Source of the DNA: Haladaptatus sp. ZSTT2
GTDB taxonomy: Archaea; Halobacteriota; Halobacteria; Halobacteriales; Halococcaceae
Reading direction: 5' to 3'
Assembly: GCF_037081775.1 (NCBI RefSeq)
Contig: NZ_JBAMHQ010000001.1
Span: forward strand, 2,356,001-2,420,000
DNA length: 64,000 nt
Every line of letters begins with the position of its first letter. Position 1 is the first letter of the stretch. Both the position numbers and the translations under genes were made by a program. Shown here piece after piece: positions 38,028 to 42,452 of the stretch. The notes under the pieces were generated by a model. That model saw nothing but the letters and a program-made list of their open reading frames with translations, did no database searches and was not told the origin of the DNA.

Positions 38028-38825
38028 ATGCAGGTGTTCGGCCTTCTTGGCAACCCCGTGACCCACTCACTTTCGCCGCCGATGCACGAAGCGGCCTACG
38101 CTGAACTCGATCTCGATGCACGCTACGTCACTTTCGAACCCGCGTCTGAAGCCCTCGAAGCCGCCATCCGCGGCGCACAGGCGCTCGGCATCGCGGGCCT
38201 CAACGTGACGATTCCGTTCAAACAGGACGTCCTCGACTTCGTCGAACCGGACGACCTCGCCGCGCGCATCGGCGCGGTCAACACCATCGACTTCTCGGGC
38301 GAGACGCCGACGGGACACAACACGGACGCAATTGGCGCGGTGCGCGCCCTGCGCGACCACGACGTGGCACTCGACGGAACCGCCGTCGTCGTCGGTGCGG
38401 GCGGGGCGGGGCGTGCTATCGTCTTCGGCCTCGCAGACGAGGGCATGACCGTGCGTATCGCCAACCGCACCGAGCAGAAAGCCCACGACCTCGCCGCCGT
38501 CATCCCGAACGCGACCGGCCACGGCCTCGCAGACCTCGAGACACTCCTTGCAGACGCGTCCGTCCTCGTGAACGCGACGAGCGTGGGCATGGAATCAGAC
38601 GAGACGCCGGTCCCGAAAGCCGCCCTCCACGACGAGTTGGCTGTGCTCGATGCGGTGTATCGCCCGCTCGAAACCCGCCTCCTGCGCGACGCTCGTGCCG
38701 TCGGTGCGACGACGGTCGATGGCGCGTGGATGTTGCTCTATCAGGGTATCGAAGCCTTCGAACGGTGGACGGGGAACGACGCGCCCGTGTCCGTGATGAA
38801 TATCGCGTTACGTGAACGTCTTTAA
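38028..38825 (+). CDS. aroE: Shikimate dehydrogenase
   Basis: This encodes 265 residues. The shikimate site has [17 protein letters not shown], then [14 protein letters not shown] with the catalytic Lys, and [11 protein letters not shown] with the catalytic Asp. The NADP site is [20 protein letters not shown] followed by IANRT. It reduces 3-dehydroshikimate with NADPH in the chorismate pathway. The chorismate-using pab-like operon lies only 650 bp downstream. A TATA-like TTTTATTC near 38000 fits the start. Its stop codon is shared with the next gene's TATA element. Confidence 0.93.
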
Positions 38826-38826
38826 G
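38821..38826 (+). promoter_or_regulatory. TATA-like element overlapping the aroE stop codon
   Basis: TTTAAG covers the aroE TAA (38823-38825) and is centred about 27 bp upstream of the next ATG at 38851. Stop codon and promoter are therefore fused in the same few bases. Confidence 0.45.
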
Positions 38827-38850
38827 TGCGACGCCTTTCTATCGACTGTC

Positions 38851-39441
38851 ATGGGTCTGTTTGACTGGCTGAAATCGGTACTCGGAATGAACGGGTCGCG
38901 CCCTGACCAGCGCGACAGCGAGCGTGTCGGCGGTAAAAGCGCCAACCGTGCGGACACCTCTTCTCACTCCTCCTCCTCCGCGGCGTCCACTGAGACGACG
39001 GCGACGGCCTCCACGGAAACGATGACGGACGAAGCCGACGAGGAAGTCGGCGCGGCGGAACCCGCAGAGGCGGTCGGTCCTGCGGACACGAGCACGGAAG
39101 ACATGGAGGCGGAACCAATCCGCGAGGCGGCAGAAGAACAGGACGATGCGGCCGCAGAAGAGACGGACGCGGCTGCCTCCACGGAAACGATGACGGACGA
39201 AGCCGACGAGGAAGTCGGCGCGGCAGAACCCGCAGAGGCCGCCGGGCCGACAGGCGACACGGGCGAGCCACTCACCATCATCAAAGGCATCGGTCCGGCC
39301 TACGCAGACCGCCTCGAAGCGGCCGGTATCGGCTCGATTGCCGACCTCGCCGCGGCCGACCCGGGGGAGATTGGCGCGGCAATCGACGTGTCGCCAAAGC
39401 GCGTCGGGCGCTGGATTGAGCGCGCAAAACACCGCGTCTAA
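38851..39441 (+). CDS. Helix-hairpin-helix protein with duplicated acidic linker
   Basis: This encodes 196 residues. An N-terminal amphipathic helix ([13 protein letters not shown]) is followed by about 110 residues of acidic, Ser/Thr/Glu-rich disordered linker. A C-terminal domain then reads [20 protein letters not shown] and [20 protein letters not shown], a helix-hairpin-helix of the DUF4332/Rad-like type. The unit [20 protein letters not shown] occurs twice, 56 residues apart. The HhH suggests DNA or ribosome contact, and the N-terminal helix may attach to a membrane. Function unknown. Confidence 0.75.
39007..39071 (+). repeat. Direct repeat copy 1 (65 bp) in the HhH gene
   Basis: These 65 bases recur at 39175-39239, offset 168 bp, with a single mismatch in a third codon position (gcggcgGAA versus gcggcaGAA). 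The near-identity at silent sites points to a recent in-frame duplication. Confidence 0.8.
39175..39239 (+). repeat. Direct repeat copy 2 (65 bp) in the HhH gene
   Basis: This is the second copy of the 65-bp unit at 39007-39071. It lies in the acidic linker just before the helix-hairpin-helix domain. Confidence 0.8.
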
Positions 39442-39490
39442 AACGCGGCGAACCGCAAGAGGGTTAGTCGCACACCGTCTTCGATTCTGC

Positions 39491-40966
39491 ATGACTGGGC
39501 CATCCGTCGTGACCGACAGGGCCTCGTTCCGGGCAGCGGCGCGCGACGCACACGGGGCGCGTGTGCCGGTCGAGGTGCAGGTCACGGTTGCCGACCCGTT
39601 TCTCGCCTACCGCCGCGCCCGTGAGGACGCAGGCGGCGTGTTTTTGGAGACGACCGGTGGGCAAACTGGTTTTGGCGTGTTCGCCACCGACCCCGTAGAC
39701 CACCTCGAAACGCCGTTTACTGGCTATTCTCCCGACGGCTCGCCCTCGCTTGCGGCACTCGCAGCCCGCCTCGACCGCGAGACGCTCGTCCGCGGCGACT
39801 GCGACGTTCCCTACCCCTGTGGCGCGCTCGGCTGGCTGTCGTACGACCTCGCCCGTGAACTCGAACGCCTCCCCGACACGACCGCAGACGACCGCGGCCT
39901 TCCCCAACTCCAAGTCGGCGTCTACGACCGCATCGCCTCGTGGGAGGAGCCACACGATGGCGAGGTAACCCTTCGAATCACCGCGTGTCCCGTGGTTGGC
40001 GACGACGTGGATGCGGCCTACGACGACGGGAAAGCACGGGCGATGGAACTCGCAACCGCCGCGCTCGCAGGCGACCCGAGCGTTTCACCCCCGGCTCCGA
40101 CGACCGAACCGGTCACCTTCGAATCGGATTGCGACCGCGATGAGTTCGCCGCTCGCGTCCGGCGCGTGAAACAGTACATCCGCGACGGCGACACCTTTCA
40201 AGCGAACATCTCCCAACGCCTCTCTGCGCCCGCCACCATCCACCCCGTTGAGGCGTACGCCGCCCTTCGTCGGGTGAACCCTGCGCCCTACTCCGGGCTG
40301 CTGGAGTTTCCCGGCGTGGACCTCGTGAGCGCGAGTCCGGAACTCCTCCTCGACGTAGCCGGCGACCACGTGACTACCGAGCCGATCGCGGGCACCCGAC
40401 CGAGAGGGCACACCGACGAAGAAGATGCCCAACTTGAAGCCGACCTATTGGGTGACGAAAAAGAGCGCGCAGAACACGCCATGCTCGTCGATTTGGAGCG
40501 AAACGACCTCGGCAAGGTCTGTCAGTATGGGACGGTCGAAGTGAGCGAGTACCGCCGCGTCGACCGCTACTCAGAGGTCATGCACCTCGTCTCGCTCGTG
40601 GAAGGCATCCTGCGCGAAGACGTGTCGCTCGCAGACGCCGTCGCCGCCGTTTTCCCCGGTGGAACCATCACGGGTGCACCGAAACCTCGGACGATGGAGA
40701 TTATCGACGAGGTCGAAACGACTCGTAGAGGCCCCTACACCGGGAGCATGGGCGTGTTCGGCTTCGACGGGAAAGCCACCTTGAACATCATCATCCGCAC
40801 GCTGGTCCGCCACGCAGACCGGTACTATCTGCGCGTCGGTGCGGGCATCGTCCACGACTCCGTGCCAGACCGCGAGTACGACGAGACTTTGGATAAGGGC
40901 CGGGCGCTCGTGAACGCCATGGACGAAGCGCTCGGTGAGCAGGCCGCCATGGAGGTCGAAGAGTGA
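39491..40966 (+). CDS. pabB: Chorismate-utilising enzyme, component I (PabB/TrpE type)
   Basis: This encodes 491 residues. The chorismate-binding domain is complete: [20 protein letters not shown], the signature [48 protein letters not shown] and [13 protein letters not shown]. It makes anthranilate or aminodeoxychorismate from chorismate using ammonia from the partner. The PIAGT signature is of anthranilate-synthase type (E. coli PabB has PIKGT). Position in an operon with a class IV aminotransferase favours p-aminobenzoate synthesis. The product is therefore ambiguous. It overlaps the next gene by GTGA. Confidence 0.8.
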
Positions 40967-41586
40967 TTCTCGTCATCGACAACTACGACTCGTTCGTCTA
41001 CAACCTCGTGCAGTACGTTGGAGAGGCAGTCGCCTCTCCATACCCTGCGGCGGAACCGCAGGATGAGAGGGAATTTCATTCGGATGTACTTGTCAAGCGC
41101 AACGACGCGCTCACCATCGCAGACATTCGCGACCTCGACCCCGACGGCATCGTCGTCTCTCCCGGCCCCGGAACACCCGAAGAAGCGGGCATCTCGATGG
41201 CCATCTTCGGGGAACTCGACTACCCGACGCTCGGCGTCTGCCTCGGCCATCAGGCGCTCTGTGCGGCGAACGGCGCGCCCGTCGGCCACGCCCCCGAGGT
41301 CATCCACGGCAAGTTCTCGCAGATGGTCCACGACGGCGAAGGCATCTACCGAGGGCTGCCGAACCCGCTCAAAGTCGGGCGGTATCACTCGCTCGCCGTC
41401 CGGCGCGAAGACCTCCCCGCCAGCCTCACCGAAACGGCGTACACCGAGGACGAACACGGCGTCGTGATGGGTGTGCGCCACGCAGAAAAGCCACATGAGG
41501 GCGTCCAGTTCCACCCCGAAAGCATCCTGACCGACGCGGGCAAGCAACTCATTGCGAACTTCATCGACCAATGTACTTCCACGTAA
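40963..41586 (+). CDS. pabA: Glutamine amidotransferase, component II (PabA/TrpG type)
   Basis: This encodes 207 residues from a GTG that overlaps the pabB stop. Class I GATase motifs: [33 protein letters not shown], the nucleophile in [15 protein letters not shown], and the His-Glu pair in [13 protein letters not shown]. It supplies ammonia to component I. It carries an unusual extra stretch ([20 protein letters not shown]) about 15 residues longer than the family norm at the end of the first helix. That stretch is encoded by a double palindrome. It overlaps the next gene by 16 bp. Confidence 0.85.
41019..41062. repeat. Tandem palindromes forming an in-frame insertion in pabA
   Basis: TGGAGAGGC (41019) pairs with GCCTCTCCA (41032), a 9-bp stem with a 4-base loop. 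CCTGCGG (41044) pairs with CCGCAGG (41056), a 7-bp stem with a 5-base loop. The two lie 3 bp apart and coincide with the extra residues of PabA. The form resembles hairpins at the ends of IS200/IS605-type elements or palindromic repeats that invade genes, but no transposase is present. Confidence 0.6.
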
Positions 41587-42452
41587 ACGGCGACCTCGTG
41601 CCCGAACAGGAGGCCACCGTCTCGGTGCGCGACCGCGGGTTCATGTACGGCGACGCCGCCTTCGAGACGCTCCGCGCCTACGGCAGGAAGGTGTTCGAAT
41701 GGGAGGCCCACGCAGACCGCCTTTCCCGTACGTGCGAGACGCTCGCGCTCGACCACGGTTTGTCGGACGACGAGTTACTCAACCGGATTCACGAGACTCT
41801 GGAGGCGAACGACCTCACCGAAGCCTACGTCAAACTCTCCATCTCGCGCGGCGTCCAACCCGGCAAACTGACACCGTCTCCCGAAATCCACCCGACGGTC
41901 GTCGTCATGGTGAAGGAACTGCCGCGTGGGGGCACCACGGGCACGCCGGTCTGGGACGGCCCGGCCGTCGTCCAGACGGTGAAGACCCGCCGGATTCCGA
42001 ACGAGGCGATTCCCGCCGCAGCGAAGACGCACAACTACCTCAACGGGATTCTCGCGCGTCTCGAACTCCAGCGCGCTGCCTCAGACACCTATCAGGCGGA
42101 CGAGGCGCTCATCCGCGATGCGGAGGGGAACATCGCCGAGGGGGCGACGAGCAACGTGTTTTTCGTCATCGACAACGCGCTCCGGACGCCCGCGACGACC
42201 GGCCCCGTCCTTCCGGGTGTCACCCGCGACGTAGTCCTGAAACTCGCCCGTGAACAGGGAATCCCGGTCGAGGAAGGGACTTACACGCCAGACCACCTCC
42301 GCCGCGCGGACGAAGCCTTCCTCACGAACACGACGTGGGAACTCCGCCCCATCGAAACAGTGGACGGCATCGAGGTCGGCAGCGGCCCCGTCACCGACCT
42401 GCTCTCGCTCGTGTTCAACGAGTACGTCGAAGAACGCCATTACGGCGAGTGA
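41571..42452 (+). CDS. pabC: Class IV aminotransferase (aminodeoxychorismate lyase/branched-chain type)
   Basis: This encodes 293 residues. The fold type IV marks are present: VRDRGFMYGDAAFETLRAYG near the N-terminus, the PLP-binding Lys in AAAKTHNYLNGILARLE, the Glu in GNIAEGATSNVFFVI, and PVLPGVTRDVVLKLA. As the third gene of a pabB-pabA unit it is best read as aminodeoxychorismate lyase, releasing pyruvate to give p-aminobenzoate. A branched-chain or D-amino acid aminotransferase cannot be ruled out. A TGCG-repeat array follows the stop. Confidence 0.75.
   Translation: MYFHVNGDLVPEQEATVSVRDRGFMYGDAAFETLRAYGRKVFEWEAHADRLSRTCETLALDHGLSDDELLNRIHETLEANDLTEAYVKLSISRGVQPGKLTPSPEIHPTVVVMVKELPRGGTTGTPVWDGPAVVQTVKTRRIPNEAIPAAAKTHNYLNGILARLELQRAASDTYQADEALIRDAEGNIAEGATSNVFFVIDNALRTPATTGPVLPGVTRDVVLKLAREQGIPVEEGTYTPDHLRRADEAFLTNTTWELRPIETVDGIEVGSGPVTDLLSLVFNEYVEERHYGE

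Follow-up and report, generated by a model that had tools for sequence, protein, structure and literature searches.

Why does the pabA gene of Haladaptatus sp. ZSTT2 carry two strong palindromes in frame, and do they belong to this gene or to something found in many genes? We addressed this question in a window of 64,000 nucleotides (the whole stretch of DNA analysed, contig NZ_JBAMHQ010000001.1, positions 2,356,001 to 2,420,000), to which all coordinates refer. Our reading, to which we give a probability of roughly 0.8, is that haloarchaea have a dispersed palindromic element, protein-coding and non-autonomous, of which the pabA insert is one copy. Two covariance models are used below: R1, built from the pabA inserts, and R3, built exclusively from six copies outside pabA. 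The features of the locus are as follows.

39338-40966: pabB, upstream neighbour of pabA.
40963-41586, plus strand: pabA open reading frame, encoding the GATase subunit of aminodeoxychorismate synthase (TIGR00566, above cut-off); host of the element.
41571-42452: class-IV aminotransferase gene (pabC-like), downstream neighbour of pabA.
41019-41066, plus strand: 48-bp in-frame insert relative to the congener G002, residues 22-37 (MAFFT alignment of the window, G001 and G002, and protein comparison); its exact ends are ambiguous because a direct repeat flanks it.
41019-41065, plus strand: double-hairpin element, the span matched by model R3; model R1 gives 55.9 bits.
41019-41040, plus strand: hairpin 1, TGGAGAGGC-AGTC-GCCTCTCCA, 9 bp, arms exact.
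41044-41062, plus strand: hairpin 2, CCTGCGG-CGGAA-CCGCAGG, 7 bp, arms exact.
41014-41025, plus strand: left copy of a degenerate direct repeat, TACGTTGGAGAG (TACGTCGCCGAA in relatives).
41062-41073, plus strand: right copy of this repeat, GATGAGAGGGAA, 48 bp downstream of the left copy.

Both inverted repeats are exact and lie where an earlier note on this DNA had placed them. That note also spoke of about 15 extra residues in PabA; the insertion is real, and its length is 16 residues (48 bp) by comparison with G002, in which QFVGE runs directly into FHPDILVRRND. Homologous PabA chains from the PDB align over the full length of the window protein with a gap at the insert, and residues 26-36 of the AlphaFold model, which lie after the first helix and before the second strand, have a pLDDT below 50; the insert is predicted to be a disordered loop. 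The codons AGG, CCT, GGA and TCT, found in or beside it, are rare relative to the neighbouring genes. The sister species G001 has an insert of the same length, with 84% DNA identity over 81 bp. Between the window's genome (G000) and G001, the changes within the insert fall on the three codon positions in numbers of 4, 4 and 3, and pN and pS are 0.25 and 0.17, as against 0.018 and 0.26 in the rest of pabA, that is, a pN/pS of about 1.5 in the insert and 0.07 elsewhere. Given these ratios and the equal change at all codon positions, the insert peptide is close to neutral and has drifted after insertion, which does not support the earlier description of the element as domesticated. One cluster of four bases (GATGTCGGC in G001, GATGAGAGG in the window) makes an extra arm complementary to CCTCT(C)CAT. 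Through this cluster the right direct-repeat copy has diverged in the window (it is GATGTCGGCGAA in G001 and GACGTCGGCGAA in Natrialbaceae). Such a cluster is the outcome expected of a template switch but, as a single case, is no more than suggestive.

Is there a second copy elsewhere? Plain BLAST against the window's own genome and 99 relatives gave none beyond the pabA of G001 and partial loops, and the exact hairpin-1 pattern occurs in G000 and G001 only among 392 genomes. Since the hairpin arms vary, sequence search alone would have wrongly dismissed the family. Besides the pabA inserts, model R1 picked up weaker matches in other genes, again with two hairpins in this arrangement, and six of them were used to build R3. 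With R3, matches at E <= 0.05 were obtained in 36 of 40 haloarchaeal genomes, which were chosen rather than sampled (23 matches in G094, 19 in G264), the E-values of such short-calibrated models being rough. R3 also found the pabA copies again, independently, in G153 (E 4.9e-7), G334, G287, G000 and G193, and the window copy is the best R3 match of its genome (E 7.1e-5). In 464 kb of that genome it scores 34.2 bits (E 1e-5) and the next best match 15.6 bits; in a control of bacterial DNA, 405 kb in total and mostly high in GC, the best match reached 17.5 bits (E 0.13). In the genome of the window itself, neither BLAST nor the covariance models detected a further copy. Covariance models favour paired sequence, so that the perfect hairpins among the matches are partly selected, but this bias does not affect the E-values, the control or, as given below, the frame result. 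A mixed model, R2, made from pabA and dispersed copies, had a shifted hairpin 1 and was set aside. Confusion with tRNAs was excluded among the matches; plasmid matches at threonine synthase and a Halorussus hairpin were not convincing double hairpins. Comparison of the window sequence with plasmids, phages and viral contigs yielded nothing convincing.

Of 66 matches examined, 55 are inside clear ORFs and about 11 are without a clear ORF. The copies measure 44-50 bp and consist of two tandem hairpins. Strand and codon phase are common to 52 of the 55 copies in ORFs and are those of the window copy: sense strand, in frame, the first base of hairpin 1 being a third codon position. The hosts, as named from sequence, include ValS, HemC (porphobilinogen deaminase), DNA ligase (G202, G334), the CCA-adding enzyme (G160, G180), GltX, ETF alpha, TrpG and histidine kinases. 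Copies in ValS (valyl-tRNA synthetase) occur at about the same site in two families (G341, G055). PDB homologues are gapped at the element in ValS (1gax) and around it in HemC. Second copies of the palindromic architecture are thus present in related genomes, and the kinship with gene-invading palindromic elements that the earlier note had proposed is borne out, the pabA insert falling within a dispersed in-frame palindromic family.

The ends of the element carry direct-repeat-like RACG/GACG motifs rather than inverted repeats such as those that end a MITE. These motifs flank most copies, GACG ending 42 of 64 matches, while the window copy ends in GATG. Copy-specific sharing of the two flanks, taken over all copies, was marginal (4.84 against 4.45 in shuffled data). 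The direct repeats at the flanks may have arisen by target duplication or may belong to the consensus; for the VGE...VGE around the pabA insert, a simple transposon target duplication is kept as one of these two readings. We consider it unlikely that the element is what is left of an IS200/IS605-type transposon end or of a 52-bp PATE of the terminal-only form, as in Haloquadratum. PATEs are haloarchaeal, transposase-free, palindrome-bearing and non-coding, those of 52 bp with termini only may be mobile (PMC3119063), and the tetranucleotide-like RACG/GACG motifs at both ends of our element are in keeping with such an origin. However, PATEs have single near-terminal palindromes and no target duplication, and they are not described as in-frame coding inserts (PMC3119063), whereas the element has two hairpins in tandem and direct repeats that may be target duplications. 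No transposase is apparent beside the pabA copy among the ORFs around 41 kb (a PATE need not have one), and Rfam gave no match at the window region, nor at ten loci where most copies have no clear ORF; the likeness to IS200/IS605 right ends and TnpB guide RNAs raised in the earlier note is not supported by either search. We caught no copy in the act of moving, saw no empty site at strain level for the copies outside pabA, and could link no transposase to the element.

Could the insert simply be an ordinary, length-variable surface loop of PabA, with hairpins arising by chance or codon coincidence? The peptide E-A-V-A-S easily becomes palindromic in GC-rich codons. A pattern search found longer loops at the pabA site in 82 of 392 haloarchaeal genomes, and most of these have unrelated sequences and lack strong hairpins. 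Within the 464 kb scanned of this genome, the tandem pair of 9 and 7 bp is the sole one; as hairpin densities lead one to expect about 0.3 such pairs in that length and a few per genome, the pair alone is not astonishing. Moreover, the palindromes have decayed in the pabA inserts of G248, G376 and G290. Against this, the fold of the insert is more stable than that of shuffled sequences (z = -4.6 as RNA, z = -5.8 as DNA), and equally good folds were reached by 6 of 2000 synonymous recodings of its peptide. In the surrounding 15 kb, no other insertion of at least 12 bp relative to G002 contains a hairpin above 4 bp. In thirteen pabA inserts, 87.8% of the cells are paired, as against 31-53% in slid controls, and the number of paired cells over both helices lies above all 5000 synonymous recodings. 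Structure played no part in the collection of these inserts, which were gathered from their place in the gene or through plain sequence searches, so the test is not circular. Two-sided changes affect 7 of 17 pairs, a count inflated by relatedness and by single events counted several times; the arms have stayed complementary through them, and the compensatory changes are partly non-synonymous. Hairpin 1 is TGCCGAGGC-AGTC-GCCTCGGCA in G193 and TGCCGAAGC-AGTC-GCTTCGGCA in G124, and hairpin 2 appears as CCTGCGGC-GTC-GCCGCAGG, CCCGCGGC-GTC-GCCGCGGG and CCTGCGAC-GTC-GTCGCAGG. Together with the detection of the insert by R3, a model free of pabA, the pairing and recoding results have already largely refuted the ordinary loop, which we now regard as quite unlikely.

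At the same pabA site, Natrialbaceae and one species out of nine in genus g28 have an insert of equal length whose sequence is still recognisable (QYV[AEAIASTGPAASPQDV]GEVADE...). The 48-bp insert is patchy, being found in Natrialbaceae and in one species of family f17, and similar loops of the EAVASPC type occur in PabA of genus g9 (family f6). Inside genera g1, g10 and g28 it is both present and absent. Other PabA proteins do carry this stretch, yet in them it is patchy and fast-changing rather than conserved. When the loop is removed, the PabA tree agrees with the species groups and keeps these genera together, with the exception of one transferred PabA type; for g28, this cohesion holds for one of its two types. 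The assembly of G193 is flagged as 16% contaminated, and its PabA still groups with its own genus. As a separate observation, PabA of g28 (G151, G189; L196, L199, L205, L203, L204) falls into two divergent types, and the grouping of the GEFDDV type with PabA of the Natrialbaceae genus g77 suggests gene transfer.

Such crossing of family borders (g77 with g28), added to a same-site loop in several families, would be expected if a pabA loop allele alone were exchanged horizontally and the dispersed likeness were a convergence of low-complexity linker peptides. This we hold to be very unlikely: the hairpin 2 consensus of related copies, CCTGCGRC-NNN-GYCGCAGG, recurs in unrelated proteins, and about 11 of the 66 copies lie without a clear ORF, so the similarity resides in DNA. 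A pair of functional hairpins in the pabA mRNA, selected for the control of translation or stability, would account for the stable RNA fold and the two-sided stem changes, yet it is barely credible, as most relatives, one congener among them, have no insert, several carriers have lost it or let it decay, the element also occurs in genes that are unrelated, and Rfam has no match for it.

We therefore retain a dispersed coding palindromic element of about 44-50 bp, whose two tandem hairpins have arms of about 7-11 bp, loops usually of 3-5 nt and RACG-like bounds. Present in one orientation and one codon phase, it adds about 16 residues to an exposed loop and leaves the gene unbroken. Complementarity of the arms would be maintained mainly by template switching during replication, one arm being copied from the other, rather than by selection on RNA; such switching is documented for coding inverted repeats (PMC8604942) and for RNA stems (PMC8794818). 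Within pabA, gains and losses of the copy concern a single site, and would reflect either one insertion that was then spread by recombination and removed by slippage at the direct repeats around it, or repeated insertion at a preferred target. Precise loss might proceed by slippage between the repeats TACGTCGCCGAA and GACGTCGGCGAA, spaced by 48 bp, the intervening hairpins helping. For movement from gene to gene the likeliest route, tentatively, is a single-stranded hairpin intermediate, with either a Y1-type transposase acting in trans or template switching. The RACG/GACG flanks call to mind the recognition of tetranucleotides by Y1 transposases and the CGTC-tagged REPs (PMC3733652).

The closest known counterparts are the RPEs of Rickettsia, short palindromic repeats found in frame in unrelated housekeeping genes, where they are tolerated in exposed segments, and also between genes; related in-frame repeats occur in Wolbachia (PMC2996958, PMC2229807). 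The haloarchaeal family behaves in the same way: it is likewise palindromic and in frame in unrelated genes, and it too is present between genes, some copies lacking a clear ORF. Compared by description, the two differ in that RPEs are 105-146 bp long with one long stem-loop and reside in an intracellular bacterium, whereas the present element is GC-rich, haloarchaeal and 44-50 bp long with two tandem hairpins. A 2005 report, known here through the papers that cite it (PMC2996958, PMC2229807), describes a coding palindromic element inserted in genes of a methanogen, hence also archaeal, in a distant host. CGTC-tagged REPs (PMC3733652) resemble the element by their small hairpins and perhaps by a tetranucleotide at one end, GACG being the complement of CGTC, and they are sometimes intragenic; they are mostly extragenic, though, whereas 55 of 66 haloarchaeal copies lie in ORFs and nearly all in one frame. 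Haloarchaea do not appear in the text of that paper. Template-switch (quasipalindrome) mutagenesis explains multi-base, pairing-restoring arm changes in coding DNA (PMC8604942, PMC8794818), but as a mutational process and not an element it leaves the shared consensus at unrelated loci unexplained. No report of a haloarchaeal family of such elements was found in the literature searched, which largely excluded subscription papers, so that, as far as we could find, the family is previously unreported, in line with the novelty that the earlier note had claimed. Whether haloarchaea have a class of their own, with self-spreading, frame-conserving coding palindromes, preferred sites in essential genes, template-switched arms and a general role as a source of new loops, seems to us an evenly balanced question.

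Coding palindromic elements are chiefly familiar from Rickettsia and Wolbachia, apart from the one report from a methanogen. In haloarchaea, a GC-rich and free-living group in which some species are genetically tractable and essential enzymes would hold up to dozens of copies, direct experiments on how the elements move, on their preference for one frame and on what they do to the host protein would come within reach. The family would also explain many Ser/Asp/Glu-rich inserts of haloarchaeal proteins, such as the tandem 'AVEHGSTSPDSQARQD' repeats of histidine kinases.

In histidine kinases, the 48-bp units occur in tandem at the N-box. This motif may be the source or a preferred target of the element, since its native form, NAVEHG, resembles the start of hairpin 1. 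Tandem arrays of 48, 99 or 102 bp at or near the N-box (NAVEHGSTSPDSQARQDAVEHG...) were seen at L320, L321, L324, L325, L328, L338, L343, L350, L351, L353 and L355. Intergenic DNA of G190 (L288, about 1443-1560) holds at least four perfect hairpins in about 130 bp, one pair of which fits the element. Three loci from three families, without a clear ORF or an Rfam match (L308, L317, L319), share GGGGAAGGGCAGG just downstream. Finally, in the window itself, an acidic Ala/Glu/Asp-rich ORF at 38812-39441 contains two near-identical segments, each about 80 bp long, ahead of a C-terminus that resembles a helix-hairpin-helix.
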